In this document: positions 1 to 32,823 of the stretch, in pieces
How the letters are laid out: every line of letters starts with the position of its first letter
How positions within the stretch are numbered: the stretch's first letter is position 1
From: Paragyromitra xinjiangensis
Taxonomy: Eukaryota; Ascomycota; Pezizomycetes; Pezizales; Discinaceae
Assembly (NCBI GenBank): GCA_038503065.1
Contig: JBCAMK010000003.1
Location: forward strand, 1,984,001 to 2,048,000
Reading direction: 5' to 3'
Length of the DNA: 64,000 bases
Notes under the pieces: generated by a model
The model's input: the letters and a program-made list of their open reading frames with translations, nothing else
Told to the model about the DNA's origin: nothing
Databases searched by the model: none
Made by a program: the position numbers and the translations under genes

Positions 1-973
1 CGCCAACCGGCTTCCGAATTTTCTTGCTTCGAGGTACTGGGATAAAAGCTTGAAGACGGACTTGATGGTGTTCGAGTAAATTATTGATGCCTGCCGCGGT
101 ATGCGCATCCAAAAGCCCTAAGTATTGCCCAGACTCCAAGTAAACCATTGCAGTCTTCAGTGAACTATGACATCGAAGTGTCAGTGGTGTGAGAGCGGTT
201 ATATCATGATTCGCTGAGCTTGCGATTGTTGAATCTTGGATCTGTAGGGGTGCTGGGGATCAGTTTCCAAAGACTTGTCTATTCCACAGAGACTTGTTAG
301 AGGCGGGAGACACTTACCATCCCGAAACAAATATCAGGTTCATTAACGGTCACACCTCCCATATGTGTATCTTCATCGCCATCCACTAGCACTGCTTTAT
401 TGTCACAAGGGTTGCGCCATTAAGATCATCATAGAGTACTAACTTGGTGTTTCAGATATCTCCATGGGAGAGTTTACATGTGGGCTATCTTGTGAGAATG
501 ATAGCGGTTCAATCACTAGATGAGAGTATGCATTCAGTAGGCGTTTCGGTTAGATAGGAAACATTGAAACTTGTATATCTCGTACATGTAGGTGCCAATA
601 GACTCTCGTCGCCGCTGACTGTCTCTTGACACCACGAGGTGTGTCCGTAGTCCAAGGTTGGTGTACAGCGGGAGTTTGGGCTCGGGGAAGGCGATGCACG
701 GTCATAGCTGTAACTCGGAGAAACAATGCTTGTGCAGGGCGCGAGGAAGGTTGTGGGTGAACCTGAAGAGCTATCTTCAAAGCTAGATTCTCTAGACCGT
801 TTATTTGGGTGAGTCTGAGCTGATACTTGAAGACATAGCTTAGGTTGAAGTGTTTCTTCGATATCCCATATCGAACGCTTACGCGAGACCGGTGATTCGG
901 TTAGACTCCTGGTTATCGGTGAAATCCCCAATACATCCTTCCTAGGCCTCTGAAGCTGCTCAGACCTGTTCAT
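1..973 (-). CDS. SNF2-family helicase, 5' part (runs off the left edge)
   Basis: Only the N-terminal part lies in the window. Exons proposed: 973..517, 394..318 and 241..1, the last open to the edge. The first exon encodes a Ser/Pro-rich, low-complexity head (SPSYSYDRASPSPSPNSRCTP). The second ends in CFGM directly before a GTAAGT donor, and the third holds YLGLLDAHTAAGINNLLEHH. The complete SNF2 gene at 29174 has the same order: SPSPS-rich head, ELCFGM at a phase-0 intron, then LHLGVLDVRTAEVLSNIFG. The ATPase itself lies outside the window, so the assignment rests on this homology. The start at 973 is the second in-frame ATG; an ATG at 1066 would add a hydrophobic stretch absent from the other copy. 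The first intron's borders are the weakest. It lies head-to-head with the NLR at 1733. Confidence 0.72.
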
Positions 974-1170
974 TGGGGTGTGGTTGGTGTTTGAATCTTC
1001 CCAAGCTGAAACTAAAGTAATTGCAAGTACATACTTGAAAAGTGTGTAGCAAAGTATGTAGGCCATGCGAAAACGAGGGGGCCGTGAGCTCAAAACTCTA
1101 CGTAAATTTTATAAGACGTGTCCCGCCCCCACACGTGATCCCAACTCAGGTGTACAGGTACACAGAATTC

Positions 1171-1287
1171 TACTCGTAATTGACTGACGTTTGTGCACTG
1201 GGCTGGGTCTGCATGCCATACAAAATCATAGGAAGTGTATAGGGCACGGGCCCAGCCCGGTGCACAAACGTCAGTCATTTACGAGTA
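1171..1287. mobile_element. Foldback MITE-like element with about 37-bp terminal inverted repeats
   Basis: The left arm 1171-1207 and right arm 1250-1287 are near-perfect reverse complements: both read TACTCGTAA then TGACTGACGTTTGTGCAC inward, with a few mismatches. A 42-bp loop separates them. The ends read TA-CTCG and CGAG-TA, compatible with a TA target duplication as in Tc1/mariner MITEs. There is no coding capacity. It sits inside the divergent promoter and could affect either gene. Confidence 0.7.
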
Positions 1288-1606
1288 CTACGAACGAGGC
1301 CAGCCAGGCTGAGTCTGCAGGACGGATGCGAGTCCTGACACTGAGGCTCAATTATGGCCAGTAAAAAAATGTGACGATCAACCTAAACATCAGTGGCTCT
1401 GTTACATCAGTCAATAACCCTTCCTGCGGCCTCGGCTCGACCCCGCTCGCCGCAATGGAGAAAATATGGTATGGGGCAGTGCCGAATCTTCGAATCCGGG
1501 TTGGGCAAATGTGGTGCGCACATACTTGACACCTATCGATCACCTAAACGATAGCTGCCTAGAGCATGCTACATAAAAGCTAAGCTATAGTACCGAGTCG
1601 GTAAAC

Positions 1607-1628
1607 GAGGCTCTGGGTTACTGAAGCT
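1607..1628 (+). promoter_or_regulatory. Upstream motif shared by both NLR genes (copy 1)
   Basis: GAGGCTCT, a 7-bp spacer and TGAAGCT end 104 bp before the NLR start at 1733. The second NLR has GAGGCTCT, a 6-bp spacer and TGAAGCT ending 97 bp before its start (28925 down to 28905). It could be a regulatory site or residual homology of the leader. Confidence 0.4.
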
Positions 1629-1732
1629 CATTCTACTCTTCTTTCATAGAAGGCACTATCCTAGGTTCACTGATCCAGCACAAAGTTCAATCTCTTGCGA
1701 AGTCCCAAAGACCCTGACGAACCTAAGACTAA

Positions 1733-4700
1733 ATGTCTATTATTCAAGCATTTGATGAAGCCTTAATCCGCTTCAAGAAAGATCTCACCGATAAGGAGAA
1801 ATTGGATTTCGCGGTCACCTCTATTGAAGACGTCTATGCTGAAGCGAAAAAGATACAAGAGAAACAAGCTGTTAGAGGTTCACTTCGCAACATGCGACGG
1901 ATGCAGCCGTACTTGAATGGGCTTACACAATTTGCTACGGTCATCGAAGTCTTCGTACAAGCTAAACCTGAGATAATGGCTTTCGTATGGGTTAGTGGCC
2001 CGAAATCCCTGAGAGATAGGATATTTAGTCACCCGTGAACTAATTCGCTATTCCTAGGGTCCGACAAAGTTCTTACTCCAGGTATGTTGGCTACATCATG
2101 GCTTTTGACAACACCTCTCCTAGCGTCCTACTTGGTTACAGAAGCCAATATCAATTCCTTCACCCTGCCAGAAAGTTGGATATTGTCTTTCGGGAGTCTC
2201 CAATATCCAGAGAGCCCGCAAACACTCCTAGCATGACTAGCGATATAATTTGACACTATGCTTGTTTCCACCAATCATTTCCGTTTTTCATTTAGCAAAT
2301 TACGCTATTTGTGAAACCTTCTAACCATTTCCTACTTTAGATTGCAAGCAACTTCACCAAAAGTTTCGACACGTTGCTTGATGCATTTCAGAAGATCGGT
2401 GAAAATCTTCCGCGCTTCGTCAAGTACGCAGACATTTTCCATGACAACCCTCAGATGCAGCAAGTTATCAGTCTCATCTATGAAGATATCTTGAATTTTC
2501 ATCGATCTACTCTAAAGTTCTTTAGAATGAAAGGTAATTCCCTCTGCAATGTCAATAATCTGATTGATTGCATGGGTGCTAATGAAGTTGATATCATTCA
2601 TTGCATTAATAGCATGGAGGCAAATGTTTATATCACTTTGGCGAACCTTTGAAGATAGTTTCGGCGTGATCTTGAATAATCTTAACCGGCATAAAGATCT
2701 CATTGATAATGAAGCTACAGCAGCACATATTTCTGCTGCCTATGAAGATCGGAAAGCGGCGCTTCTAGAGGACCAACGAAGGCAAAAGAATCGGGATAGA
2801 GAGTGTATTCGAGAACTAAGAGCGTGGCTGGCACCAACTTGTTACGAGGTTGAGGAATTAAATTGTCGAGATATCAGGAACCAGTATCCTAACACAGGAA
2901 ATTGGCTTCTTGGAGATGATAAATTCAAGGCCTGGTTGGATCCTAGAGCCGTGATGAACGGTTTTTCATTTCTATGGTTGACAGGAATCCCCGGTTCGGG
3001 TAACTATCTCTAAAATTCCTAGATAGGACATCTGACTAACGCCGGGCCTTACGAGCAAGGAAAAACGATTTTAACATCCCTGGTTATCGATTACACCAAG
3101 TCCTCTAGACAGGTGACAGACTCAGTAGTATTCGCCTTTCTCAAAAGCGGGAACGACAAACAAAACACCTTTGCAGCGATAATGCGAACGTTGATCTTTC
3201 AGCTATTGCTTGAAAACGAGATTTTATTGCATGACATACACGAGAAGTACGCATCAAGTAACTTCAGTTCTCCTAATTCTCGAGAGACACTAGAGGATAT
3301 TTTACAGACAATGCTTGGAAACATCGGGGTTACCTATTTCATAATTGATGGTCTTGATGAAATTGAACCTGTCGAGAGCAAGAAATTACTTTCGAGTTTG
3401 CTCTCAATCCAATCAAAAAACGACAATGTCAAAATCTTCCTTAGTAGCCGAAACGAAGTAGATATCTCGAGGACCTTATCAAAGGTTCCGCAGATCAAAA
3501 TCGGGGAAGCAAATAAAGAAGATATCACGACATACACATCTATTGAAGGGAAACAGTTGGTTGGAAGGTTTGGCTTTAACGATAGTGACGATGCTCGCAA
3601 GGAGATTGATGGAATGCTTACGCTAGTGGCAAGCCGTGCACAAGGTATATCCTATTTTTTCGCTCAAACTTTATGCTCGAAGAGCTTACCGATCTGTAAC
3701 AGGGATGTTTCTATGGGTGCGTTTAGTCATCTATAACCTAATGCAGCAGACGACTTTGGAGGAGCTTGAGCACGCAGTTGAAAATCTACCCGAGGGATTA
3801 GAAGAAGCGTGAGTTGAACGAATAGTCCTTATCAAATGGTTTATGATATTCTGACGGCTTTGAATTAGTTACGGTCGAATCTTAAAAAGGATAGACGTTA
3901 AATTAGGCCCGAATGAACGAAATCAGGCTAGGCGTATCCTAGAATGGGTTGTCTGCGCGAACCGTCCATTGACTCTGAGAGAGATCGAGTTCGCACTCAC
4001 CATTCGAGTAGGCGATAGATGCTTTGTTAAAAAAAGGAGATTGCTGAGAAAATTGGATGAACTGTGTGGGCCTATTGTGGAGGTTCAGAAAAATGGGGTT
4101 GTTGGTTTCGTACACTTTTCAGCCAAAGAGTAATCAAAACCCCCCACTTAGAACTTATTTCCCATGCTAAATATATCTAGATATCTCATCAATGACTATA
4201 GCGGGCCTTTTATCCACGAACCGACCGCACACCATAACATTGCCCAGACTTGTGTCTCCTATCTATCGTTCACTTGCTTTGATGATACGTTAGATGATGG
4301 CCAGATCATTGACTGTATATACAACGGGGATTATTGCCTGGATTACTATGCGGAAACCAACTGGATTGAACACGTTAAGAATACCGGTGGATGCTCTGAC
4401 GATGATTTAAACGAACTGATTGAATTATTGAAATCCTTCATTGAACGGCGGCGGAATACAAGATACCAGCTTCTCGCTCCCTCGGAACCAGAGACGCAAG
4501 AATTCTCCGTCTTGCGGGTGCGGGACCCTAATTTATATGGAGTTCTGAATGGGCTTTACGTACATCAATCTCAAAAAGTTTACGAGAGCCTGTTACCTAG
4601 TAAGATCCCAGCAGCAACCCCGAAACAGACCTTTACTACAGTTCTTAGGCTTACTATGTTCAAAAAGACTCCAACGCCTGCATAGATCCACTCCGGCTCC

Positions 4701-7498
4701 GATCAGCAATAGACCGAGCCCGGGATGTTTTCGAGACCCATGTGCTTTCGTTGTTTTCAAAGGGGGAGGGAAACCGTTTAAACTCAGTACGAGAAATATA
4801 TGGGTCACATCTCTTCAAATGTCGCCAACAAACATGCCCTTATTTCCACAAGGGGTTTGAAACACTTAAAGATAGAGAGGCACATTCTCAAAAGCATAGC
4901 CGCGCATTCAAGTGCGGTAACGCAACATGCCAGTTCCACTCTTTCGGCTTCACAAGCGCTCAAGCCCTGGCAAAACACACCAGCGACCATCACAAAACTA
5001 TAACCAGCACTTTTCTAACTGAGCCTAATCCCGATGGTTTACCGGATGACATATCGGGATGCTTAGAAAATTATAGCGACTCGGCAGCGTTGACTCTCGA
5101 TTGCCTAAAAACGGATAACGCCATCTTACTAGAGAAACTATTGGATTTAAGCACAAGTGAAAATCTTCGGCAAGGAGGGCATACCTTGTTGGAACGCGCT
5201 GTCGTCAATGGTTCCGAAAGTTGCGTGCGACTACTTCTGCGACAAGGCGAAAATGTGCCCAATTCAGCTGTTTTTAGCGCAATAAATGGCTCTGCATCTA
5301 TCCTTGAACTTCTGATCGATAACGGAGCAGATTTGGCAGCAAGGAATGTGAATGGGGATAAGATTTTGCTGTATGCCGTGAAGTCTAAGGCGCATATATC
5401 TGTAAAGCTGCTATTGGAGAGGGGAGTAGATGTGGCAGAAACGGACACTTCAGCAGAAACACCTTTGGGCGTAGCTTGGAGGATGGGACTTTGGACCATC
5501 GCACGGATGCTATTAGACTACGGAGCCCCTGAACCCAGGGCCGATGACGCCCGAAACGCAGGCCTACTTCTCGCGGTTAAGGCAGGGAACGAGACCATGG
5601 TTCGACTTCTGTTGGAAAAAGGGACCGATACACATACTCAAAAGAAGGCCTTAACATCCGCGCTGAAAAACCGGCGATGGCTAGGAGATATTAAGAGCAG
5701 AGAAGGAATTGTTCGATCGTTAGTAGAGTATGAAGCACCGGTGGATCAGGGCTTAATATTGGTTACCGCTATACAGAAAGGATGGGATACTGTAATCCAG
5801 CTACCGGTTTTTTCCAGTGATGAATCATTATATATGGCTCTGGCCGCAGCTATAAAGATGGGGGAAGTAGCGACGGTTCGATCGATACTGAAGGGCGAAT
5901 CTGGCATTTCGAGTAGGCGGGTGCCTCCCATCCTGGATATGGCGATAAAGCGCGCCCATGAGAAAATTGTCGAAGCATTTGTGGAACACGGGGTGGAGGT
6001 GGAGATGGAACGGGAAAACATCCTGGGCATCGCCATACAGAACAAGTGGGAAACGGTGGCCCGGCTACTGCTTGAGAAAAACATTATAGATTTCGGATGG
6101 AAGGATGGCCGCTCGATAAGCCTCGCCTTAATCGCATCGCAAACAAACTCCGAAATGCTGTTATTCTTGGCAGCGCACGATCTATCGCGACATATGACTC
6201 TACTAAGAGCTACAGTACTCGGAAAAGATGGAGAAGCGACGGTTCGATCGATATTGGATAATGGATTTGATACCTCGAGTGGGTGGGTGTCCTCCCTCCT
6301 GGATATAGCGATAAAGAACAGCGAAGGGGGAATTGTCCAAGCTTTTGTAGAATACGGAGTGGGGGCAGAGTCGCCGGAAAAGATCCTGGGCATTGCTATA
6401 CGGAATGAGTGGAAAACGGTGGCTCGGCTGCTGCTTGAGAAATACACCATAAATTTTGCGTGGCGCCTAGACCGCTACGAGGTAAGCCTCGCTACAACCG
6501 CATTGCAAACGAGAGATGAGATGTCCTTATTCTTATCTCATCACGATCCGTCACGATATATGGCTCTTTTGAGGGCTGTGAGGGAGGGGGAAGAAGCAAC
6601 GGTTCGGTCGATATTGAAGAACGGATTCGATGTCTCGAGGGAGGATGGGTCCGAGCTCCTGTATATTGCAGCGAGAAGTGAAAAGGAGGGGATTATCCAA
6701 GTCTTTGCGGAATACAAGGTGCAGCCGGAAATGGCTCTGAGCCTTGCCATACGGAACAAGTGGGAACCCGCTGTCCGAATACTACTCGCGAATAACACTG
6801 TAGATCTCAGGCGGGCACTAGGCTACGGAGAAACGATTATGGAAATTGCGGTACGGACGGGGCACGAAGGGATACTACAACGTTTATCCGATTACGAGTT
6901 GTCAACATATACGACTCTAGTGGGATCTCACAGGGAAGAAAAGAGGGCAGCGGTCCTGCCGATGTTGGAGAAAGAATTCAGATCTGGTGCCTTAGTTAGA
7001 GATGGAAGGGGGGATCGATTCCTGATAAGTGCACTAGGTGGCGAGGATGAAGGAGTTGTCCTAGCCTTACTGAAATATGGAGCATGGACACAGCCAGAAA
7101 GAGTTTTATGTGTCGCTATGCGGAAGAGTTGGGATGAAGTGATTCGAGCGACGCTCGATGAAAATGTAGCAAGGTTCGGCTATTTAGACCGGAAATGGAA
7201 GGATGAATCTGGTGACACCCTCCTCGAACTCGCGGCAGCAACGGGGCAAGGAGGGGTAATGCGGCGTCTTCTTCAAACATATTTACCGGAAGCCGACCTT
7301 CTGATAGAGGATAAAATTAGAAGGGGAGCTCTCCGGAAGGCTATCATTAATGATCAGGAGCTCATGGTTCAATTGCTATTAGAGAATGGCGTGGATTTAG
7401 AGAATGATTTTGGATCTGAAGTATTGAGTTTTGCATCGAACTACAAAATTATTCAGAAACTAGTGGAATATGGCGCAAAAATCTCAGATAGTATTTAA
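1733..7498 (+). CDS. NLR-like protein: DUF7708-NACHT-C2H2 pair-ankyrin repeats, 1680 aa
   Basis: Nine exons give an unbroken frame: 1733-1990, 2058-2081, 2341-2533, 2613-2999, 3060-3644, 3703-3808, 3869-4129, 4181-4559, 4649-7498. Domains in order: a DUF7708-like N-terminus (about residues 60-230, with FVW-GPTKFLLQ formed across a 24-nt exon), then a NACHT with Walker A GIPGSGKT (about 282-290, split by an intron at G|GKT) and Walker B FIIDGLDE. A helical/winged-helix region follows (YLSFTCF). Two C2H2 fingers of C-x4-C...H-x3-H type lie at about 787-848, then ankyrin-type repeats to the end (LLERGVDVAETDTSAETPLG). Fungal NACHT proteins act in self/non-self recognition and cell death (family knowledge); the ligand here is unknown. 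The donors at 4560 and 4130 are the weaker ones. The protein appears intact. Its partner is the divergent SNF2 gene. Confidence 0.9.
5871..6900 (+). repeat. Higher-order ankyrin repeat, about 121-aa unit, three copies
   Basis: Within the NLR, blocks beginning near 5871, 6237 and 6597 repeat with periods of 366 and 360 bp. Each starts with an ATVRSIL motif (from the DNA string CGACGGTTCG or CAACGGTTCG), then LDMAIK or LDIAIK or LYIAAR, a VEYGV-like turn, and LGIAIQNKWETVARLLLEK or a close variant. Similarity is visible at DNA level, suggesting recent intragenic duplication of several ankyrin motifs as a block. Confidence 0.8.
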
Positions 7499-10400
7499 AC
7501 ATGGCATATAGAAAAGACGATAGGGTTTGAGCTGCATATATTATTAGATTTCTCTTAAACGTGTTTTGTATTCAAAATTATGTAGAGTTTAAAAGCTAGG
7601 GATATTCATCGCGTGGGAAAATTTAGGAAGTGAATTAATTGAAAAAGGCTATTTCTATGCATGGGCTCCAAGAGAGCACAAAACGCTGTTTATGTTCTGA
7701 TCCAAAGGATGTCAATCTCCAAACGGGTCGGCCTGTTTGTAAGTAGGATCACTTTTGGTTGGCCCATTTGTATTAAACCTGCTTTAATGACATACGAGCT
7801 GGAACCTATACCCCAGTATTAAGCTTAGGTTTAACCGAATATCTACCTGTAGTTCTTCAATATATAGGCACAGGATACTGTTCCATTAGAGTCTCCCAAC
7901 GATATAGGAAACTAAGCACCTCTAAGTACTCTATTTCAATAGTCACCATCATTGTTATTCATTTCCGTACCCTCCCTCATCCTGTGGCGAAAAAGTCCAG
8001 CGCAAAGTTACGAAAGAACATGAGTCTTGAACACCAAATATAAAGCTAGTACCACCTTAGGTATAGAAACAAAAGCGCTAATGATTAAGTGATCTTGCTC
8101 TAGATCTAAGCTAGCTCCCTACAGTTAGTAAGGTCCGTGCTACCTTAAACCACTAACACCCCGTCCCAGCCGATACCATTTAGTTACTGCGATGGTCATA
8201 AACGAATCCCCTCCGCGAATCAGCAAACTATGAGTATATAGCTTGAGGCTCCGCTATATAAAATGAAGAGGAATATTAGTTGATGAGCAGAGAGATTGGG
8301 TAATCATTCCCAGAGCCAGAAACCTATTATACATACAAATACTTCTCAGAATGTTCAGTATGCTTGCCTTATCGTGATCAAGATCAAAAAATCACCTAAA
8401 TTCCTGTCGCCTCTAAGAGTGTGAGTTGCTAGAACCAAGTAAAGGAGTCAGTGGTGGGTAAAAGACTAGCTTATGTGTGCACGTAGGAAATAATGAAAAG
8501 GTACGGGGGGACATATATACCTTGTTTAAGTTTATACGCTGCATGTAGACATTCATTCTATATGCGTTGGGCTATAGAGCATAGTGCTGGGCGAAAGCAG
8601 GCTCAATCGCGGCTTCCAAATGCTCGAGCATTATGTGCAATTATTCACATCTTCTTACAGAAGAATACCGAGTGAGAACAGGCATCAGCTCCTGGATCCA
8701 GCATCGCGGGGTACGTAAATGGGAAATCTATCTATCAACATCGCGGGGTGATCTTCGTGGGAGTGTGGTCTTCTTAGGTTATAAAATAGCCTTGAACTCA
8801 AAATAATCCAACGTATACTTCTGAGCCGAGGCGTATCGTGAATACTCATATCAGCTTCGTTAATGCTATTCCACTGCTTCCAGTTGACACAAGCTTATCG
8901 TGCACCCGTCCAAAAGTGCCAACATGGTAGTTCCGGTGCAAAGGAAAAGAGCTTCTGTTATATACTGATAGCTATACCCCTAGCATACAATCTCGCAACC
9001 TTCCTCTGGTGACCTTTGAGACCTTTGACTGCTACTCCACGTCGAGGACATCTAAATTTTCCCATGTATATGCAACCATTCTTAACTTTGTATTCTATGT
9101 TTGATCACATGTATAAGCACGTAGTATCTAAAGCCATTCCCCTTGGATTGCCATTCTTGCGTTCGTAAAGCTCGCACATGCACAAGCAGCACGGGAAATT
9201 CCTTCTCCCCGGACTACCAACACCAGACAAGTATACTCGATCTTACCAAGCTCGCAAGGGTACTAGCTTTAGTCTGCAGGATATAAAGCCTCCATACTTT
9301 ATATCGTTCGCACTTCATAAGCTTAAAGGAGTAACTGCAGGAGTTTTCGTCCCAAGCATCAAGCATCACCTATTAGTGATCTGAAATATTTGCTGCCATA
9401 AGTCAAGAAGGGTTGGATGCGTGTGTGGATTATCGATCGATCAATCAACCAGAGAGGTTCTAACCTTAATCGTAGGTCACCTTCGGTCACGGGGTATCTC
9501 TGATCACGGAGCATCCTAGTTACGAAATACTTTTGATCATGATGGCGCAGACCAGATCACACAAATTTTGTCACACAAACTCTGTCATACATATACATTC
9601 ATAGATGCACATATACATACAAAACTAGCGAGAAACACAAAAGCCAACTAAGAAACCGCCGGTAAATCGCCCTTTAAACTATTTTTTCTAGAAGGCGCAG
9701 TTAAGAAATGAAAGACCTTAAGGATCCTGAAACCAGCCTTTTTCTATGCACAAAGCAAGAAGCTTCGTTTCAGAACAGTTACACGAGGATTGCATAGAGC
9801 GGCCGAATCCCGTTAGCAAGATGACTTTGTGGCTGCGAAAGCTTACAGACCGATCCCTTTAGCTGCGCCTCAGGAAAAAGGACCCCACTCACGGTAGATC
9901 AATATTACCCAAAGTAAACCCATCGGTTTTTCCATCGAAAAGCTTGAAATATCTAGTGTGCAGACTACAGGGGTTAGGTGGTATTGTTACGCCCGAAGAA
10001 GCGAGACGAAGTCTATTTATGCGGGTACTGCAGTACCGTAGAAACTCGAAAAATTCGCTAGCGTCGGCGTCGACTTGGCAGTGTCAGGCGAGGGTGGCTT
10101 ATCGATCTTTTTTGTCAAGAACCAATAAAATCGCTGTAGTGGATGAGGGCAAGATGCTTTTTAGCGGAGGAGCACAATATTCGCTGGTGGTAGAGCTCAG
10201 TTCACCAACCAAAAGCAAAGGATCGCTACGCCACTGATACTAAGGTGACGCCGACGCTAGCGAATTTTTCGAGTTTCTACGGTAGTTGACCAGAGGTGCC
10301 TGAACGGCAACCTAATATTACCGGGATTCAGAGATCCGATTACAAGGATCACACGGCTAGACCCGGAATACCATGCATACAAGGTAGAAGATCTGATAAA

Positions 10401-17700: not shown

Positions 17701-18244
17701 ATAAATCTGTTAGATGCTCTTTTTAGGGTCAGAGGCACTCTGCAGAAGTTGTCAGGTACCTAGTACCTATAATGGCTCAAGATTATTAGTGTCCTAATTG
17801 GAAGTTCCTGCACGATAGTGCGATAGCTCACATTCAACTTTCGCTCGTGGTGGGCCCGAAACCCCGGTATGTATTTGTTTTTACTTTTGTTCTTATTTAC
17901 TCGGATGTCAACCAATTGTTACACCAACGGCGTGGATTCAGTCCTCGAGGCAGCCTTTGTGTAACGCGCGACGTGGGCAAAGTGCACAGCCTTCTTCTAA
18001 GCCGCACCAATGGACAATCGCCCGCGCACCCCCGCACACTAGGCCCGCCACCATTCGCTTTTCTTTGAGCCTGGTACCAATCACCGTGATGGCACTCAGC
18101 CTTTCTGGCCGTGATTGCAACACTGCGACTTAAAGCCTAGTTATTGCTACCAACTACTTATCAATCCGAGGATTCTAAAATTTTCCACTCTTACCGTAAC
18201 TTCACCATTTACTATCCTATTTATGCCAGACTAAACCGCCGAAA
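11749..18244. other. Gene-poor stretch of 6.5 kb
   Basis: No supported gene. ORFs of 60-85 codons (for example 14185-14442 and 15800-16045 on the minus strand, 15390-15617 on the plus strand) lack recognisable domains and splice partners. I found no transposase or reverse-transcriptase motif and no tRNA or rRNA. It may be degenerate intergenic or decayed repeat DNA. Confidence 0.55.
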
Positions 18245-19683
18245 ATGAACAGAATACGGGGTAGTATTCATGCTTTATTGTCGCGTTGTTCTAAGAAGGA
18301 TTTGAGATCCGAGGCTGCGGCGGCGAAACGAGAGGAACAGAGTCACACTACTCCCCAGCCTCCGAAAAGAAAGACCTCCACGACGAACGCTGGATTCAAC
18401 GTTTTTCAGGCTCGAATTTACACCAAAGGAGAAAGAAACAACTACCATTACAGCCCGATTCCAGTAGCAAAGCTTCCTACCTTTCAAATCGACCCCCCAG
18501 ACGATATTCCTTTCCAGCTTAGTGTTGCGGAAGAGCAACACCAAGACCTTTATGTTGTAACTCCTCCTCCTTCACCTACTGAAGGCAAATTTTGGAAGCC
18601 ACCCCTTACGATAGATACCAAGCAAGTGGTGCTTTTGGGAAGCACTCCTCCATCACCTCCTAGTTCGCTCGGATCGATATCACCTGATGAATACAAATAT
18701 GAATATCAATCACCCACACGCGCACCACCTTCACCTCCAACAACTCCCCAGTTATCGACCAATTCACCTTTTATTAATGCCTCTGATGACATCCTGATCC
18801 ATATATTTTCCTACCTTGATTCTCCATCTTCCATGGAAGCATTATCTCTCGCCCACCCCCGATTCTATACGGTACTTGCTCCGAATAAACTCTTCATCTT
18901 TCGCGCAGTAGTCAAAAACACATCTACTTCAGCATCTTACCTTGTTGAGCTTCTGAAACCCAGCGGGGCTTACACAGCCAAATCATATTCCGAAAGCTAT
19001 GCTTTTAGCCTCGAAGTCGTGCACACGATTAAAACTCTCATTCAGTCACGATGTCGTTTTTTTCTAACATCGGGGAAAATGGATTTCCTCAACGACGGGG
19101 CAGAAAAAGCTTTTGACGATGCACTTTACAATATTTGGACTTTTTGCCTGCTATTTCGGGACCGAGCGGACGATGTTGAAACGCAGATGAGATGGCTGCG
19201 GAAATTTGGACCAAAAGAGCTGTTAGATATACTTGAGATATGGCAATGTCTCGGTGTATTGCTGCGACCACTTGCTGAGTGCCCGAAACTTGCTTTGAAG
19301 CATGGTATCATCAAGAGCCGACCTCCGACAAGCAATAATTCGAAAGTTATAATAGAACTAGGTAAGAAGCTCCATTTATTTGAATTTCGTGATATTGGGG
19401 CTTATTTTTTGGGAATATAGAGGAATGGATTTCGTATGTTCAAACACGAGGCTTGGACACTTTACTGCCTATTGTTCAATGGGCTGAGGAACAACATACT
19501 CAAAGATATACCATTGTTACCGGCAAAGAACTTCATAAATGGGAGAGGCAGCAGAAAACTCCCTATTCTCTTTTCTTGAAGGGCGCGGCGAGCAAGGTGT
19601 ATCGAAAACTCTCATTGGCCGGGCAATCTCAGCACGTGGCAAGCTCACCTACGGAGAGTTGGGGCCCGACAACCGATTTCTAG
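18245..19683 (+). CDS. F-box domain protein, 459 aa
   Basis: Two exons, 18245-19361 and 19421-19683, are joined through a GTAAGA donor so that IIEL continues into EEWISYVQTRG. Residues 1-170 are basic then Pro/Ser-rich and probably disordered, with repeated SPPS/PPSPT motifs (TPPPSPTEGKF, STPPSPPSSLG). An F-box-like motif lies at about 177-212 (NASDDILIHIFSYLDS...ALSLAHPRFYTVL). The rest is helical with aromatic-rich segments. F-box proteins recruit substrates to SCF ubiquitin ligases (family knowledge); the substrate here cannot be inferred. Without the intron the first ORF would stop at 19420, so the second exon is a prediction supported by phase and composition. Confidence 0.82.
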
Positions 19684-23455: not shown

Positions 23456-24480
23456 TCAGATTTGCACATCTTCCATCTGCCCCGCTTTAGCCGCTCCCAC
23501 GCCAGCCTCGCCCGCCTGCCATACGAAACTCGTCCCTAGCGTTGCATCGACTGCGACCTGTCCGACATTGCGCGTTGTTTCGCGAGCGCTTTCCACTAGC
23601 TCTTTCGCTTCCTGTCCATGCTCGTGTTCGGTGATTCTAGAAGCGCTTTCCCCGAGCGTGGAGGTTACGTGTGCAGCGCTAACCACCAAGAAATTAGGAC
23701 ACTAGCTGAGTAGTGCTGCAATGATAGAACATACCTTTTCCCAACACCCGATGCAACAACTACAGTAGCTCCCATAGCCTGGTTCACTGCCTCTCGCGGT
23801 AAACTGTTCTCATGCTCTCCCATCTCTGGGTCCGGGCTTGCGGGTCCGCCCCCGAGTTTCCCACCGATCCATTTCCCAGCTTCGAAGGTTGCGCCACTGA
23901 CAGCGTTGGAGATCTTTCCTGATAGTTCTGCGAGTTTCCCACTCCCTTCTACGGCCCCGTTGGCGACTTTGTGCGTTGTGTTTGAGAATTTTGCCTCCTC
24001 GTATTCCTCTACACCGTCTCTACCCTCAACTCGTGCGTCTGTTTTTGCAGTCCATTTCTCTGCTGTTCGTGCTGCTGCTTCTTTTACTGCCCGTGCCATG
24101 TCGTCTGCGTCGGCGATTAATCCAGCTTTAAGGAATCCATACCCTACTAGTACGCCTTCGAATTCTGTAGCTGCTTTGGATGTCTCTGTGGTTTCGTCAT
24201 CTGCCGAGGGTGGGAGTTTGACTTCGACGAAGCCAGTTTCGGTTTCTGAGAGGGGGAAGGTGAAGAGGTAGGTCAAGGAGTTGCTGGTTCCCACGATAGA
24301 GGACTCGGAGAGAGGGATGGTGAGGCTGTCGATGTTCAAGAGGAGCTTGGTATTGGGAGTGGAGGGGAGTGGGAGGGTTAAGGTTAGAGTGCCGGATTTC
24401 AGGAGTATTCGTTCTGGGCCGACGAGCTGGGCGGCGGTGACGTTGGGGATTTGGACTAGTGGTGGTGAGAGGGAAGACAT
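23456..24480 (-). CDS. Senescence/spartin-type domain protein, 322 aa
   Basis: Two exons, 24480..23735 and 23678..23456, are joined in phase 2 so that ASGVGK continues into SAAHVTSTLGES. The N-terminal half is beta-rich (LLKSGTLTLTLPLPS, SLTYLFTFPLSETETGFVEV). The C-terminal half is Gly/Ala-rich and amphipathic (VANGAVEGSGKLAELSGK, AGKWIGGKLGGG, NQAMGATVVVASGVGK). This layout matches the plant senescence-associated ERD7/spartin C-terminal domain family, which associates with lipid droplets and membranes (family knowledge). The usual fungal form has similar length. The assignment rests on pattern recognition, not a search. The repeat patch at 24613-25040 lies directly upstream and probably overlaps the promoter. 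Confidence 0.72.
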
Positions 24481-24612
24481 GGTAGATAGTGGTTTTGGTG
24501 GAAATAGTTCTGGTTTGATTTATGGAGATGAGGTTTTTTTTCTCTAAGGAGTTATCTATAGATAGTGGATTGCTGTGGGCTGGTTGGTGTATAGTTCCTG
24601 CTTCCCTGTTAT

Positions 24613-25040
24613 TCTTGGCAACGGCTAGTGATGTCATCCCGCATGTCACTGTGGCGGCACACTCCCGCGGGGACTAGCCAATACAGACCGTTGCCAAGAG
24701 GAGGCGTCTGGGATACTATACCAATTAAAGAGAAACGTATACAGATCGGGGGTCTTTTCTCTGTGAACGGACTCCAACAGCCTCAGCTGAGCCGTCCCTC
24801 TCCCTCCTGTTGCGTTATTTCGGTGCTATAAACCACCCTAGAGAGGTATAGTACAGAAAGCCACCCTCTTGGCAACGGTCTGTATTTGCCCAGTCCCTAC
24901 GGTAATTAAAGGGAAACGCATACAGATTGGGGAGTCTTTTCTCCGTCCCTCTCTCTCTTGTTGCGTTATTTTGGTGTTATAAGTTACGGAAAACCACGCT
25001 CTTGGCAATGATCTATTCGCCAGTCGACGTCCCTTATAGC
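24613..25040. repeat. Nested inverted and direct repeats upstream of the senescence-domain gene
   Basis: A 21-bp perfect inverted repeat links 24680-24700 (starts AATACAGACCG) to 24866-24886, with weaker pairing beyond it (GGGACTAGCC against its complement). The CTTGGCAAC core or its complement also occurs near 24613 and, as CTCTTGGCAATG, near 25000. Between them, about 100 bp near 24726-24831 is repeated in shortened form near 24903-24981 (shared TCTTTTCTC and TGTTGCGTTATTT). It looks like a MITE that has been partly duplicated. Confidence 0.65.
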
Positions 25041-25507
25041 TACGGTACTGGCGGCTTGAGTTTTTCACCCAAGTTCCAAAGATCGATATCTAGATCTATG
25101 TAAAACAACCTTAAGCAGCCCCGGCTCTCTCTAGAACAGATCCTTTTATATTCCCACAAATCTGTGGGGTGGGGTTGCTAGCGATTGAAGTCAGGCATAT
25201 AGTTATAACGCAACCAGCTAGCTGTAGCAAGGTTTGCATTCAAGTCTTTGTTTCTTTTTTCTTTTCATTATACTTAGGTTTAGGTTCTGTAAATAGTATG
25301 TCAACCATAATAAACGACTAGTAACTGAAGAATAGAGAAACAATTAGAGTCTAATCACCATCGAAGTCATTGTCTTCGTACAGTTCCATCGCATAATGAA
25401 AATCTATATACATATTCAACATATATTCTGCCTGTGGACTCCACTACCTCTCATGTTTCATGCGAGATCTCTTACAGTCTAATACAATGTGAATGCAGTT
25501 TCATGAT

Positions 25508-28500
25508 TTAATTCCCCTCTGTTGCATCATAGCCGAATTCGCTCCTCCTCATTGCTTCAATTAAATCGTTGTCAGGTATCTCAGGCGCTCCAGCCGGGTT
25601 TCCCTGGTCGTCACCATAGATTGCAACTGACAAAAGGGGGGGTGGTGGGAAGGGGTCCCATATGTTGTGTCTGCTATAAGCGCGAGGACGGGCCAAGTCT
25701 AGAAGATCTTGATTCTCGTGGATGGCAGCTGGAAAGTGAACGGTGTCTTCTGGGATTATTGGATGGAATTTGATAAGGTGTTCCTGCAATTCTCGTTCAG
25801 AAGGGCAACCAATGTCTGCAATATGACATCCGTCATGTGTACAGCGAAACGGGCGTTTGTGCGTTCTTTCGTGCTTCTCTTTTGCTTGTGCGGAAAGGAA
25901 TCCTTTGTAGAAGAATTGGCAATGCAAGACCTCACACCGAAACCAGTTGGGGCCGTATACACTACGCAAATGTCTGCGATGGGGATCGGTGGGCTCCAAA
26001 GAGGCTAGTTTCTCAAGGGCCGATCTCGCTTTCTGTATTTGAATGCTCAATCCCCGGCCGCGGATACCGTCGGTCGAGCACCTACTAGCGCCATGGTCTT
26101 TAGATTGAGCTAAAACCAGAAGCCACTCGAACATGTCAAATTTCCTAAACGCACGGAACCTTTTCCGGATGGCGGGTGGCGCCGCGGGGTCCATTTCCAA
26201 ATCACCCCAGTGTTTGTCTAAGAGTTTTCTCAGGTGGCCAATCAACTTCCCGAAATCATCAGATTCGTAGTTAACGATTTGCTGGCCAGAGTCTTCAACG
26301 TGCTGAATCCAATAAACCGCGGCGTAATCTTGAAAAGAATAGTCCCCATTGAACATAAACCTTCGAATTTGGTCATCGGACAGGCCGATATCGAAGCAGT
26401 CAAAGGTTAAATATTGCACGCAAAGAGTAGCAAGATTTATGTCCTCTATTGCAACGTCAACAAGCTTCATGTCGATTAGATGGCTTAATGGAGGCAAGAA
26501 GTTAGTCGTAAAATTTTTGATAGGGAAGCTGGTGTTTCCGATGTACTTACACCTTTGCGGTTGCGTGAACAAGTTCAACGGTATCCTCCTGCACTTCTAC
26601 AAGAGAACCACATAGTTCTTTCACAGTAACCCTTAGGCGTCTTTTGGGGTTGACAGTACGATCTTCAAGGTCAATTGAAACTGCCCCTTGAATCTCGTGC
26701 CATTTGAGGGGCCGCTTGGAACAGACGATCCACCCTAGCAATTTCTCTGCCTGTGCCTTCTCTGATTTGGACGTATTGTTGTAAATTCGGTCGACAACCC
26801 TGGCATAACTAGCAAAGAGAGAAAATTATTAGAATTAGAAACTGAGTAGCTTGGTGGATGCGTAAATGAAATATCTATCTATCTATCTATCTGAGTAGCT
26901 TGGTGGATTAACACTTACGCTTGTCCTAAGCCAGTAGGGAATACATTCGACGAAAGTTCGCGATCGAGCTCTTCTTCTGTTGTTTGGTTGAAAAGGTTGT
27001 CCATAACCAAGTAGCTGAATAAAAACATCCCTATTCAAAGGTCTCAGCGCCACTTTCGCATATGGAGTCTGATATATACCATCTGCCCGTTCAAATACGG
27101 TTGATACTATTTCGGACTTCCTAGTGTCGGAAAGCCCAAATTTTCGCTGAATCTTTTCCGCCCAGGTTTGTAAATATATCCTCATGTCGTTAGAATTATC
27201 CTTGCTATTAATGCGCTTCTTTCCATAGCTAGCCTTTGATAATTTTTTGCTAATGTCGTCCTCATTCCTACTAATGAAAATCACTCGTACGTGTCCCGGA
27301 ACCGCTGACTTAATGGCCGGTATGAACCACCCCAGGATCTTGTTCCGTTCCACTTTTTCGCACTCATCCAGACCATCAATAACAATATAGGGCTTTTCTG
27401 CGTTCTCTAAAGCGGTACGAAGAAGCTCTTCTAACGTGCCATTAGATTTCAAGGTTACCTCCGAGGATTCGACTTGGTTGTCATAAAAGTATCGGAGGAG
27501 ATCCTTGTTCTGATGTAAAAGCTGGACCAATATCCCACGAGCAACAGAATCGAAGGTATTTTTATTTGCATCTCCATGCTTGCAATAGAAAAAGCAGAGG
27601 GAGGTAGAGGGCAATTTTCGCGCTCTCTCGACAATTAGAGAAGCAAGTATGGTTTTTCCTGAGAATTAAAGTTTAGTTATTAGACTTCGTAATATTCTTT
27701 ACACCTTGTGGACAAATTTTTGAAACTAGGGGGGAAGTAGCCTACCAGCACCTGGAATTCCATACAGCCAAAAAACTAAACCCGCAGTCGAAAGTGGATC
27801 GTACCATATCTTGAATGCGTCATCATCAAACAGCCAATGGCCCGTCCCTGGGTAGAGATTCCGTATCCCTGTGAATTTTTCTTGATCAACGTTGCTATTC
27901 GCGGGTGCTAACCACTGGGTTACCGCTATGAGCTGTCTCTTCTTCTCTGCCTCACGGATATTGCTGAAATTGTTTTCTGTCTCAGTGCGTGCTTTTTGTG
28001 CTGCTTCAAATTCCGCTAAAGATGCTTGAGTCTCAACCAGACGCTTGTGGCGCTGAAGGTTATCGAGAATATTTTGAAACGTGGCTTTGAAATCTTTCCA
28101 CATTGATTTGAAGACCAACTTCCAGCCTAGGGGTCAAATCGTTAGACCGCAACGTAGTCGAAGAAGGAGCCTAAACTAACCTCGGCGGTTAAAAACCTTT
28201 AGAGCATGGCGGTGAAAATCGAGAACATCGACATAGAATAACTCAAGGACCTTTCTCATAAAGGAATCATTACGAAAGATACTTTCATATTGTTCAAATT
28301 GAGGGATGCTTTCCCCAAGCATTTCATATGCCTCGAGTAATTTATCAAACGCTTCCACCATGTTACTTGCAGTCTTTTGACCATCAACAGGATCAGTCCA
28401 CGAGACTAATTTTGGGGGTGGTGCGAATGCTATATTACCAACAACAGAAATTTCATCGGGCCCTAGAGGGCAAACAATTGTCAGCGATCAACCTCTCTTC

Positions 28501-28807
28501 TCGGATTCAAGATAGCGGAATAGCTCTATGGTCGCTAACAAAAGAGACCCCTTACCCAAACGAACGCAAGTATGCTGGAGGTGTTCAGAAAGACCTCGAT
28601 GACTGCTCCATATTGCTCCACCCCCTCCAGAAACGGTTTGATTCTGTTCAAGTTCATGAGACCATTTCTCGCCACTTGGTCCTGCTGGATTCTTCGGATA
28701 ACGCCAGTGACATCTTGCAGATTGGAAATTTTGAAGTCGTTCTCTTCTGCAGGTGTGAGAGATATCTTGAACCTTGATAACGCTCTTTCAAATGCGCGAG
28801 ACGACAT
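25508..28807 (-). CDS. NLR-like protein: DUF7708-NACHT-C2H2 pair, 924 aa, no ankyrins
   Basis: Eight exons give an open frame: 28807..28556, 28462..28439, 28373..28181, 28126..27746, 27658..27080, 27030..26919, 26808..26551, 26483..25508. Domains: DUF7708-like N-terminus (FVW-GPMKFLLL across a 24-nt exon), NACHT with Walker A GIPGAGKT split by an intron and Walker B YIVIDGLDE, then a helical region (LGWIVCSKRPLKWHEI; LATLCVQYLTFDCFD). Two C2H2 fingers (FRCEVLHC...HERTH; FRCTHDGC...HLIKFH) lie at about 774-840, followed by a short Pro-rich tail. Intron positions match the NLR at 1733 except that the last intron there is absent here. It ends about 85 residues after the fingers where the paralogue has over 800 residues of ankyrins, so it may be a shorter form or have lost its sensor region. 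Partner: divergent SNF2 gene. Confidence 0.9.
26842..26908 (-). repeat. (ATCT)n microsatellite with duplicated flank inside an NLR intron
   Basis: An 18-bp string, CTGAGTAGCTTGGTGGAT, occurs at 26842-26859 and again at 26891-26908, with five ATCT units (26873-26892) before the second copy. It lies in the intron between exons 6 and 7, which is 110 bp here and 60 bp in the paralogue. Confidence 0.85.
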
Positions 28808-29173
28808 CGTGCCCCAAGGAAGAGTATTTCCTCGAGCCAGTAACTATTTGACTTTGGATTATCGTACTAGGTTTAAGTTCTGTGTTGAAAAGCTGGATTC
28901 TCAAAGCTTCAAAGTGAAGAGCCTCACGAGCTGAGTTTTTTCAGCCTTGCGCGAGGCTACGGACCACATCACACGGCAATCAAAAACGCAAGGGGCGGTG
29001 GAGCACCTGCAGTTGCCAACAGATCACCGTCTGAGACCAATGATCTACCATCACAGCAGCGGATTGTTCCTAGGATTGTGGGCGGTGGCGAAAACATCCA
29101 TCCCCTGAACTCAGTCCTCCTGATACTTTCTTCAGAGCTGCTCGAACCTCTGCTCTGTAAGCTACAATCGATC
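28808..29173. promoter_or_regulatory. Divergent promoter between NLR (-) and SNF2 helicase (+)
   Basis: This 366-bp space separates the two ATGs. It includes the motif shared with the other NLR (GAGGCTCT at 28925..28918 and TGAAGCT at 28911..28905, minus strand). The compact head-to-head layout suggests a bidirectional promoter. Confidence 0.65.
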
Positions 29174-32100
29174 ATGGAACTGCCAATCTCGAAGGGAATC
29201 AAACGTCCCCTTCCCGGGGATTTTGAAGATTACGAGCACCTTTCTCCGGCGAGAAGAAATTATTCCCAAGGGCAAAGCGATATCTACAGGTACGCGAGCA
29301 CAACAACGTATCTCCAGTCTACGAGCAATACTTCATCGGCGTCCCACTCCCCATTTTCAGGTTATCTTAGTGCTGCAAGCCCTTCAGAATGCTTGACTGC
29401 AATAACTTCGCCATACTCTTCCACATATGACAACGATGAGGTTGGCAGAGATTTGTGGCCAGGGGCTAGTCCATCTCCTAGTCCAGGGGGTTTAGACTGC
29501 CGAACTCCTGGTTTTGTGGGTACATTAGATAACCACACCTTACGTAAGTCTAATAACGTGTTATACATACTCGAGTGCTAAGGCCGGATATACAGATGAC
29601 CCGGAAGGGGATGTGAGAATTTCTGACGGATCATACTTTACCCGAACCTTGCCGGCGAGAAAAGCTTTAACAGGAGGTGGGCCTGATATCGCGACTCTGG
29701 GCAATCGCCCCCAGGAAACCAAAGAGCTAGCAGAACTCTGCTTTGGAATGGTAAGGTTGCCAGCCCTCCAAAATACCCGCGCACATCCTCATTCAGTTTA
29801 TAGATCTGCGGAGCAAGAGTGTCTTTCTCCGATAGGGCTCTAATCGGCGATTTAGCTACCGCGAAGTTTTCCGTTTTACGCCAAACAGAAAACTACTTCG
29901 TTCTTGTATGGCAGGACCAATTGCACCTTGGTGTTCTTGATGTTCGAACAGCCGAGGTTCTTAGTAATATTTTTGGGTTAGATACATTTCGATGTGAAGC
30001 ATTCTTCCCAAAAGGATACGGAACTGAAAATACCTCGCGGCTACGGGAGAGATCCGGAGACCCAATCACTATGAATGTTTATGGCTCCAGAAACATAATT
30101 GGTGAGGTTGGTAAAAGGCTTTCAGATATGAAAGTGTACTTGCAACAGCCTGACCATCTTGATGAGTCTATTGTATATGAGAATCCACACTACTTCAGCA
30201 TCTCAGGCCAGCCAACTCCGATTATTGGGATCGACCCAGCAACGACGGAATGCCCAAACTTAAACAACGAGATTGCCACTGTTTTCGATTCGCTAGACCA
30301 GGCCGTTTGTTTGCAACTCCCGGAGTTACCAGTAGACATCCGAATCAAGACTAACTTGTTGAGGTGAGGTATATCCAACCTCTGCGTTTAACGTAAAGAG
30401 AGGGGTTACTGAGTTTGGGACCATAGTCATCAAAAAGAAGGTGTGTCTTTCATTGCGGGGAGGGAAGACAACCCCGGAGCCGGAAAACTCTCTCTGTGGC
30501 AACTTGATAGCTCCAACGGTCTATCTTTGTATGCCTACCACCAACTCCCTCATACTGCGTCCGAATGATGAATTTCTTACATTATGCTACAGCTACCGCC
30601 ACATGATAACCGGTTCAAGAAAGGCATTTCTTCCGGATGAGTGTCGCGGGGGAATTTTAGCGGATGATATGGGTCTTGGAAAAACATTAACTATGTTATC
30701 TAGTATCGTTCGGTCTTTGGAGAATGCAGACGTATTCGCTCAGACCCTTTCGGATCAGCGAGATCCTACCGGTCATAAGTTAATTTCTGGTAGAATTGCA
30801 TCGAAGACAACTTTGGTTATCGTCCCCTTGTCACGTAGGTCCCAAAGAGCGCTTCAAATATGGCCGAACAGGGCGCTGACCGCTTGCGCGTAGTACTGGA
30901 TGGATGGGCCGAGGAAATCGAAAAGTCTGCTTTCTATCAAATTGCCCTTCTATAAAGTTGAGTGTTGCTAATTAAAGTCTAAAGACATATTTTCCCAGGG
31001 ACATTGAGTTACTACAGGTATCATGGGGGCAAGAGGGAAACCAACCCTGCTAAACTTAAAAACTTCGATATTATCTTAACAACATATGCAACTGTGGCTT
31101 ATGATCATTCAACCAAAATCAGTCCCCTAGAAAAGTTACATTTTTACAGGCTAGTTTTAGATGAAGGTAAATTTTAACGGTTCCGTTTCAATATTCTCCG
31201 TTGGTAAAGTTAACAAGAATCACCCTAGCTCACATCATCCGTTGTCGCTCAACGAACCAATTTCGTGCTGTATTTTCCTTATCCGCCAAACACCGTTGGT
31301 GTTTAACGGGAACCCCAGTACAGAACAAACTCGAGGATATTGAGTCACTCATAAAATTTCTCCGTCTCTCTCCTTTTGACGACAAGAAAACGTTCAGCAA
31401 ATCCATCGTTGAACCTTTAAAGGCGGGAAATTTCGATGGTCTAAGGAATTTACGCACCCTTCTAGGTTCAATTTGCTTGCGACGAACGAAAGCAATCCTC
31501 ACGACACTCCCCGAGTCAACCGAGGAACCCCGCATACTAGAATTTTCCCCAGAGGAGCGAGAAAGATATAAGGAAGTCACACAAAAGTCAAATGACGCGA
31601 TTGAAGATGTCATATGTAATGGGAATCCTGCAGATACATACCATAAAGTCCTTCAAGCAATTTTACAGCTTCGCCTACTCTGTAACCATGGGACTTTTGA
31701 TATCAGTTCCCCCGGCACGGCCATTTCCGGCATAGTTGAGAGTCCATCTAGCACGCTCGACCTTCTCCAGCAGACGGGCGAAGCAACCTGCGCGTATTGC
31801 TATTGTCCTATCGATTCTCTTGAGAACGTGGAGAGCTCCACTAGTGGATATCTTACTATCTGTTCCCATTCCCTCTGCCCAGACTGTCTACCCCGTTACC
31901 GGGACTCTTTAAAAAAGCTACCAGGAAAGAAAGCAAAATTCGAGTGTCCTTTGTGTCAAAGTCATATAGGCTCGAAATATTTGGTCATGACAAAAGCAAG
32001 GAAAACAGCCAAATCGGCTTCATCCCCACGACCAATTCCGGACTTTTCTTTCCAGAGTGGAACTTCTACCAAAGTATCCGCGTTGTTGTATGACATCGAG

Positions 32101-32823
32101 GAAAATGCTGAGGATGAGAAGAGGTAATTTATTCCCTCATCAACTCTTAACTCGGAGATAAACTGACCTCCAATCTTTCTTCCCAAGTGTTGTTTTCTCA
32201 TATTGGACGAGAACATTAGATTTAGTTGAGAGTGTGCTCTCTTCGCGAGGAATAAGATACGTACGACTTGATGGATCACTCGCGATCGCGGCGAGGAAAA
32301 CAGTTATCACCACATTCCGGGAAGACCCAACCGTCAAGGTACTGTTAATGACAACAGGAACCGGTGCCGTCGGGTATGTGACATGCTCCTATTCGTTGCT
32401 CCAAGTCTGCACTATTGACTAACAGAACCACAATAAGACTCAACTTAACAGTAGCTAATCGCGTTCACCTGTTGGAGCCACAATGGAACCCTATGGTCGA
32501 TAGCCAAGCGATTGGCCGCGTTCGTCGACTGGGGCAGAAAAAGCCCGTATCTATCTTCAGATATATTATGCGAAATACTATAGAAGAGGTCCTTATAGTC
32601 TCTCCAGAGATAATGCTCCAGGATGAAAGCTGACACCTAAACCCCTTAAAGGCTGTCCGGTCACGTCAGCTGAAAAAGCTCCAACTCGCAGAACTTACGT
32701 GCGATGCTGGAAACAAGGAGCAGGAGGGAAATATGACGAATCGAATATTGGTAAGCACACATAAGACTCCAATAAATGATATGAAATACTCACTTCTTCC
32801 AGAATTTGCGGGCCCTTTTGTAA
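29174..32823 (+). CDS. SNF2-family helicase with embedded RING (Rad5/HLTF/Rad16 class), about 992 aa
   Basis: Proposed exons: 29174-29543, 29596-29750, 29804-30363, 30427-30528, 30593-30834, 30894-30924, 31009-31166, 31229-32123, 32188-32373, 32438-32597, 32652-32750, 32803-32823. The N-terminus is a Ser-rich head then an unknown domain (LHLGVLDVRTAEVL). The ATPase has motif I ADDMGLGKTLTML, motif II LDEAH formed across an intron, and motif III LTGTPVQNKLED. A RING lies between the lobes (CAYC...CSHSLCPDC...CPLC). The second lobe has VRLDGS, LLEPQWNPMVD and QAIGRVRRLGQ. Proteins of this class are ATP-driven DNA translocases, often ubiquitin ligases. Two junctions are weak: 30924/31009, where the expected residues before YYRYHG are lost, and the donor near 32597. 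The frame is otherwise intact. It pairs head-to-head with the NLR ending at 28807. Confidence 0.86.

Follow-up and report, generated by a model that had tools for sequence, protein, structure and literature searches.

A linked NLR and Rad5-like SNF2 gene pair in Paragyromitra xinjiangensis, very probably conserved and co-inherited among ascomycetes

The window analysed here is a stretch of 64,000 nucleotides (nt) from the genome of Paragyromitra xinjiangensis (C3:1984001-2048000, in an assembly of 48.2 Mb in 22 contigs), in which an NLR gene lies head-to-head with a gene for a RING-containing SNF2 helicase. A preliminary description had proposed that such a divergent pair occurs twice and that it constitutes a two-gene module. 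Both pairs in the window, SNF2-1/NLR1 (pair 1) and NLR2/SNF2-2 (pair 2), are real, although the genome contains three, the third (pair 3) being located on contig C21. The module itself is now strongly supported by linkage of the two genes in 26 other species and by trees that agree when set against unlinked controls. Searches at the DNA level concern the host genome; other species are known through protein homologues and the contigs listed for them. Among the matches listed, the closest proteins come from Pyronema for SNF2 and from Trichophaea, which we take to be a Pezizales genus, for the NLR.

In pair 1, the 5' part of SNF2-1, encoding a serine-rich head and the start of a HIRAN-like domain, occupies positions 1-973 on the minus strand, and the gene extends left past the window to approximately C3:1981500. 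Its start codon is uncertain, with ATGs at 973, 1066 or 1278. An SNF2 domain lies immediately to the left of the window (C3:1982405-1983628, minus strand), and tblastn revealed Walker A (GGILADQMGLGKS), a DE/AH motif spanning an intron, a C3HC4 RING and motif VI, the motor motifs and the RING being broken by short introns. The left fragment therefore represents a true SNF2 gene. The preliminary description had stated beforehand that its module idea would fail if this fragment were anything other than a SNF2 ATPase, and a complete SNF2 was found beyond the window edge. The intergenic region (974-1732, 759 bp if SNF2-1 starts at 973) leaves 454-759 bases between the start codons, depending on the choice among the three SNF2-1 ATGs, and holds an inverted repeat at 1171-1287 with 52-nt arms that are 83% complementary.

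NLR1 (1733-7498, plus strand) encodes DUF7708, NACHT and winged-helix domains, a pair of C2H2 fingers and ankyrin repeats. The automatic gene model omits Walker A and the fingers, but the DNA encodes both. The DUF7708 exon spans 2341-2649 (PF24809, 29.4 bits, cut-off 25), and the NPHP3_N/NACHT region 2891-3535 (PF24883, 85.5 bits; PF05729, 27.0 bits) is interrupted by an intron at 3001-3061; joining across it restores the Walker A motif GIPGSGKT. These are followed on the same strand by the winged-helix exon (GPIID_WHD, 3864-4133; PF22939, 46.2 bits), the finger pair at 4820-4993 (a six-frame pattern match with coordinates counted from the open reading frame, ORF) and an ankyrin tail from approximately 5156 to 7495 (Ank_2, 174.4 bits). 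The tail contains a repeat family: three 139-nt copies lie within 5866-6730 and start 366 and 360 nt apart, two of them having 60% and 73% identity with the reference, which we read as an internal duplication of sensing repeats. The domain order given in the preliminary description was thus right, while the long ankyrin tail was not listed there.

Pair 2 has the opposite orientation. NLR2 (25508-28807, minus strand) has the same domain order as NLR1 but lacks ankyrins, ending in a short tail after the finger pair (25763-25936, minus strand; pattern match, coordinates counted from the ORF). Its NPHP3_N/NACHT exon (26883-27665, minus strand) scores 85.3 bits for PF24883, and one exon matches DUF7708 below the Pfam cut-off (18.3 versus 25 bits). 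The DUF7708-NACHT-C2H2 order claimed for both NLRs consequently holds, by Pfam matches in NLR1, by the sub-threshold DUF7708 match and NPHP3_N in NLR2, and by the C2H2 pair in both. The start codons of pair 2 are separated by an intergenic region of 366 bp (28808-29173). SNF2-2 (29174-32823, plus strand) encodes a serine-rich head, a HIRAN-like domain, lobe 1, a RING and lobe 2; its automatic model has about 14 exons and omits one stretch near 31270-31323. On the same strand, the exon with the HIRAN-like (LGxLDxxTA) domain at 29804-30364 has no Pfam match of its own, the RING between the helicase lobes at 31789-31959 matches zf-RING_5 below the cut-off (E=3.7e-5; 24.0 versus 27.9 bits), its cysteines being read directly, and lobe 2 through motif VI (GRVRRLGQ) spans 32186-32538. 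A 17-nt tandem repeat of seven units (32812-32934) lies at the 3' end.

Pair 3 consists of a SNF2 gene on the minus strand (approximately C21:1402400-1405951) and an NLR gene on the plus strand from 1406392, again head-to-head, with start codons 440 bp apart. To estimate how often such neighborhoods arise by chance, we compared DUF7708 and SNF2 loci throughout the genome. A DUF7708 search returned 10 loci, two of which lie within 4 kb of a SNF2 match; with NLR2, which this search missed, three of 11 DUF7708 loci lie within this distance and eight do not. With 39 SNF2 loci, merged by hand, about 0.09 DUF7708 loci would be expected within 5 kb of a SNF2 locus, and random placement gives a probability of 8e-5 for three of 11, or 3e-3 for two of 10 when both C3 pairs are counted once. 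Four other relatives of this SNF2, located on C1, C22, C2 and C21:431k, lack an NLR relative within the 2.9-4.9 kb covered on their upstream side. For the HIRAN gene on C22 and the family member on C1, where this stretch was 2.9-3.9 kb, the finding suggests that the paired copies are dedicated. The C22 gene (C22:218501-223500) is a HIRAN-bearing Rad5/HLTF-like gene; the neighboring ORF upstream is divergently oriented and, judged by eye, begins in a Zn2Cys6-like manner. The C1 gene (C1:567501-572500) carries an acidic stretch in its head, IIDLTEDDDD, presumably resembling a SUMO-interacting motif, and its N-terminal domain falls just under the HIRAN cut-off.

We then examined linkage in other species, using the best 120 SNF2 and best 120 NLR homologues together with 77 further SNF2 proteins contributed by a profile search. 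A contig was taken as shared when those listed for the two proteins were identical in base count, which served as a fingerprint; cross-species coincidences of this fingerprint numbered 0 in 23,582. The best-120 lists yielded 22 shared contigs, every one within a single species, and the profile search six more. Among the homologues listed, a family NLR and a family SNF2 therefore share a contig in 28 pairs from 26 species besides the host, and the pairing extends well beyond this locus. Assuming 40-Mb genomes, 2.55 linked pairs would be expected by chance among 58 within-species combinations, and the maximum in 20,000 simulations was 10. On contigs shorter than 400 kb, 11 of 22 combinations are linked against 0.08 expected. 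Where both genes carry tags (eight pairs), these are consecutive in seven, seemingly serial in FGG08, BP6252, MRS44, FPRN and FQN50 and as JGI-style numbers in Zopfia and FL1651; the eighth pair has JGI-style numbers that are not consecutive. Xylogone and FL1651 hold two linked pairs apiece, and the pair is found in six classes, with at least one paired genus checked per class. Pyronema omphalodes, of the Pezizales, is among the species with both genes on a shared contig. The head-to-head arrangement counted in the preliminary description is established for the host genome (3/3 pairs), whereas elsewhere the evidence consists of the shared contig or consecutive tags.

The NLR and SNF2 trees of 31 pairs (the 28 linked elsewhere and the three in the host genome) bear out co-inheritance: their agreement gave r=0.885, a value reached in 0 of 5000 permutations (maximum 0.268), and 22 of 28 bipartitions are common to both. 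For comparison, one unlinked combination per species (22 species) gave r=0.007, whereas one linked pair per species (26 species) gave 0.825, so that the match cannot be put down to a common history of the species; seven of the 25 unlinked combinations come from species that also hold a linked pair. Both trees depart from taxonomy in the same way, placing Zopfia (Dothideomycetes) with Emmonsiellopsis (Eurotiomycetes) and both beside Xylogone (Leotiomycetes). Hypoxylon (Sordariomycetes) groups with Talaromyces and Aspergillus, a placement that is weakly supported in the NLR tree (0.26). In the host, Xylogone and FL1651, the true pairing beats all swaps, one host swap nearly tying (0.8853 versus 0.8832). 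The paralogous lineages within the host genome are 30-57% identical by exon. Old paralogy or transfer as a unit may each underlie this shared history. A recent local inverted duplication can be rejected as the source of the mirror image in the window: pair 1 clusters with pair 3, and pair 2 with Pyronema, in the NLR and SNF2 trees alike. Altogether, these comparisons of sequence indicate that the NLR-SNF2 pair is very probably a conserved, co-inherited unit.

As predicted from its domains, the NLR consists of DUF7708, NACHT, a winged helix and two C2H2 fingers followed by a variable tail. DUF7708 is present in 28 of 28 paired NLRs, and NPHP3_N in all of these as well as in both NLRs of the window. 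In a structure model of the P0121 NLR (mean predicted local distance difference test score, 86.3), the N-terminus forms its own helical domain of about 230 residues. Structure searches with the NLR were dominated by residues 231-600; matches to plant CNL proteins reach 122-230 with a root-mean-square deviation of about 22-24, and we claim nothing from them. In six-frame searches, the C2H2 pair was detected in 3/3 paired host NLRs and at none of five unpaired DUF7708 loci. Across an alignment comprising 70 of the best 120 NLR matches, none of the eight C2H2 ligands varies. The tails, by contrast with this layout, vary from extra C2H2 fingers, ankyrin repeats (4/28 paired) or WD40 repeats in Terfezia to nearly none, and in the window NLR1 has ankyrins where NLR2 has the fingers and a short tail only.

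The SNF2 partner is predicted to have a Rad5/HLTF layout, i.e., a HIRAN-like domain and two lobes with an inserted RING, since the LGxLDxxTA domain, which the preliminary description had correctly reported as common to both SNF2 genes, looks like a divergent HIRAN. Pfam HIRAN does not recognize it in the window SNF2 copy; the C22 relative scores 49.5 bits. By profile, the closest solved relative is Rad5/HLTF (E=1.2e-129, with the match starting after the N-terminal domain), and among the structure matches listed Rad5/HLTF was the only one to cover the N-terminal domain too. The ATPase motifs are intact in both partners, and 28/28 paired SNF2 proteins show no variation in the columns of Walker A, DE.H and the motif VI Arg/Gln. 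The RING cysteines are present in all three host copies, and zf-RING_5 is detected at a loose threshold in 24/28 paired SNF2 proteins. P0040 and P0086, the paired SNF2 proteins of Terfezia and Tirmania, keep the motor motifs with a degraded RING. Against models of bacterial defence proteins, P0001 scored 100.7 bits for ZorD (cut-off 1500) and 72.7 bits for DrmD (cut-off 950); a bacterial SNF2 model unrelated to defence did at least as well in the same list.

Other features were recorded in the same searches. We considered whether the pairs might be Starship cargo and rejected this, as DUF3435 captain matches occur only on C17 and C2, with none on C3 or C21; the two matches (C17:430607-431506 and C2:1334185-1335084) are near-equal and contain internal stops, and may be decayed captains or intron-broken genes. 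Two inverted repeats in the window, at 10034-10284 (43-nt arms, 95%) and 24677-24889 (25-nt arms, 96%), each with about 165 nt between the arms, are possibly remnants of small mobile elements. Further ORFs in the window encode a Senescence domain (23668-24519), a glycosyl hydrolase 31 (47342-49187), an Arf-like protein (61035-62006) and a weakly F-box-like protein (18200-19417). A scan of viral contigs gave 0 confirmed relatives, and a bacterial scan with the NLR gave two, with weak NACHT matches only.

How might the two proteins work together? With slightly less than an even chance of being right, we favor a surveillance module made up of a dedicated Rad5-like motor and an executor NLR docked through its fingers, with the NLR either monitoring the motor or being licensed by it. 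The SNF2 gene would encode a dedicated Rad5/HLTF-type motor, duplicated from the replication-stress kind of which unpaired copies exist elsewhere in the genome, and the NLR would serve as switch and executor. At rest the NLR would be held near the motor, probably through the conserved finger pair. The trigger could be the motor engaging abnormal or foreign DNA, or an alteration of the motor, whether caused by a parasite or by mixing with a non-self form once hyphae have fused, upon which NACHT would exchange nucleotide, the NLR would assemble and the helical DUF7708 end would set off cell death or shutdown. A single short intergenic region may provide shared control and so balance both products. 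As the NLR has its own helical N-terminus and, unlike amyloid-type NLRs, would need no separate executioner, its partner is more likely to act upstream. In the passages available, PLP-1 is described as carrying its own effector domain and watching the linked SEC-9 (PMC12881547), and NWD2 as working through the neighboring HET-S (PMC4344463, PMC12881547). Somewhat unlikely, though it is tempting to consider, is a nuclear DNA-surveillance complex in which a defence-dedicated Rad5/HLTF-like translocase would scan DNA and, via the C2H2 pair, alarm an NLR, leading to death or arrest of the cell; its targets would be foreign or damaged structures from a virus, transposon, plasmid or the nucleus of a fusion partner. 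To our knowledge no eukaryotic NLR has a DNA motor as a fixed partner, and such a complex would be the first.

A number of observations weigh against a dedicated module of this kind. Tight linkage by itself can yield co-inheritance without joint function, and the placing of the motor upstream of the NLR is an argument by analogy. From the first two lists, 13 of 34 species yielded no shared contig, as did 17 of 43 once the third was included; in these the partners may be separated, or may fall outside the best 120 listed. A single SNF2 clade of 93, chosen post hoc, contains two detected pairs compared with 29 of 107 elsewhere, and the 25 changes between paired and unpaired over the whole SNF2 tree match, without falling below, the minimum among 500 shuffles (mean 29.3). 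The position of Lophium differs between the two trees. The three host intergenic regions have no 8-mer in common, the pair-2 region having been taken 3 bases short. Among the five finger-less unpaired DUF7708 loci, only those on C16 and C17 are confirmed as NLRs. In the 28-sequence alignment of paired NLRs, strict invariance is confined to a single finger ligand column, the rest being at least 90% conserved, and the finger pattern is missing from two of the 28 models (P0212 and P0230, both short). Finally, at least four of 28 paired SNF2 models (P0040, P0086, P0115, P0313), some of which may be faulty, have a degenerate RING or none at all, so that an E3 role is not general.

The multiplicity of copies, with three in the host and two linked pairs each in Xylogone and FL1651, would also fit allorecognition (heterokaryon incompatibility), in which the NLR would recognize non-self variants of the linked SNF2, a polymorphic bait, and kill fusion cells. 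Fungal NLR incompatibility loci are described as adjoining their partners, such as SEC-9, the SNARE Bcvic2 of Botrytis and, perhaps, boi1 next to hetE in A. fumigatus (passages of PMC11138114 and PMC12881547). We nevertheless regard this explanation as unlikely: SEC-9, Bcvic2 and boi1 are membrane-traffic proteins rather than DNA motors, and the SNF2 ATPase motifs, which a mere bait would not need, are intact. The reverse arrangement, with the NLR sensing a trigger by its variable tail and activating a motor that acts on chromatin or foreign DNA, would account for NLR tails that differ between pairs while the motor layout stays the same. Bacterial defence systems do use SNF2 motors, and P0001 resembles ZorD and DrmD, albeit weakly and not specifically. 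This arrangement appears quite unlikely, as the NLR already possesses a complete N-terminal domain and its bacterial scan returned just the two weak relatives.

Another account does without joint function. An old chance neighborhood could have been kept by a shared promoter or low recombination and copied as a block, since two closely spaced divergent genes are not easily separated and linkage alone would make them co-inherited. Gene order in fungi erodes quickly, but the pair has lasted in the six classes and in the divergent host lineages, and the existence of unpaired family members means that separation is viable; we consider this account very unlikely. A selfish poison-antidote pair, one product harming nuclei or spores without the pair and the other protecting them, would likewise comprise two divergent, co-inherited genes in several copies with taxonomy-defying groupings, such as Zopfia with Emmonsiellopsis. 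Known fungal killers are small, however, whereas both products here are large conserved ATPases, which makes this reading extremely improbable.

The favored surveillance module can be compared with several known systems. Like plp-1/sec-9 of Neurospora, it has an NLR gene near its partner gene, an NLR with a putative N-terminal effector of its own and a partner resembling a housekeeping protein, but the partner is a Rad5-like DNA motor instead of a SNARE, and where PLP-1 is a patatin-NB-ARC-TPR protein, the NLR here is a NACHT protein that combines C2H2 fingers and a helical DUF7708 terminus. With Podospora nwd2/het-S and other amyloid NLR-effector pairs it shares a NACHT NLR beside a partner gene; it differs in that the N-terminus is a folded helical one in place of a short amyloid one, as judged by fold with no amyloid-motif scan made, and in that the neighbor is a large SNF2 ATPase and not a HeLo-type effector. 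Rad5/HLTF (HIRAN-SNF2-RING) resembles the partner in the RING inserted between the lobes and in the structure match that covers the N-terminal domain, whereas the window HIRAN escapes Pfam, the RING is degenerate in some members, the paralogues are NLR-linked and a HIRAN-bearing relative is kept apart on C22. Zorya ZorD and DISARM DrmD also place a SNF2 motor in a putative immune setting, although P0001 scores far below their cut-offs, and we know of no NLR partner of this kind for either. The zinc-finger NLRs of Sordariales likewise have C-terminal zinc fingers, discussed there as integrated decoys, while the conserved pair here precedes the variable tail and accompanies SNF2 linkage (PMC12258605, in part).

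Neither SNF2 nor helicase is mentioned in the main text of PMC12258605 or in the portion of PMC4986451 available to us, as far as these extend. In open-access full text, with long result sets covered in part and subscription papers mostly outside, we found no account of an NLR-SNF2 pair, no paper joining 'fungal NLR' with SNF2 and none naming DUF7708. In the parts seen, a Fusarium divergence table names a SNF2-related helicase, none of the genes displayed next to it being an NLR (PMC5870968), bacterial conflict systems include SNF2 helicases (PMC7159879, which is not about fungal pairs), and PMC8195603, which holds NACHT/NLR and SNF2 terms, does not concern fungal pairs. In Trichoderma atroviride, a gene named rad5 reaches its peak 15 min after injury of the hyphae, as does a NACHT gene (PMC6291166, in part); nothing ties them to the module. 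An NLR with a linked partner is thus known, and the SNF2 type of partner is new as far as the literature search reached.

Few fungal NLRs have a known trigger. Podospora anserina alone is described as carrying 77 NLRs (PMC12881547, in part). A recurrent partner that shares the history of its NLR offers a direct handle on what a whole NLR family watches or does. Should that partner be a DNA motor, immunity of a nuclear or DNA-based type would be indicated for fungi, and a testable genetic pair would be at hand; and if the surveillance complex outlined above were to prove true, it would be a nuclear one inherited as a single unit across filamentous ascomycetes.

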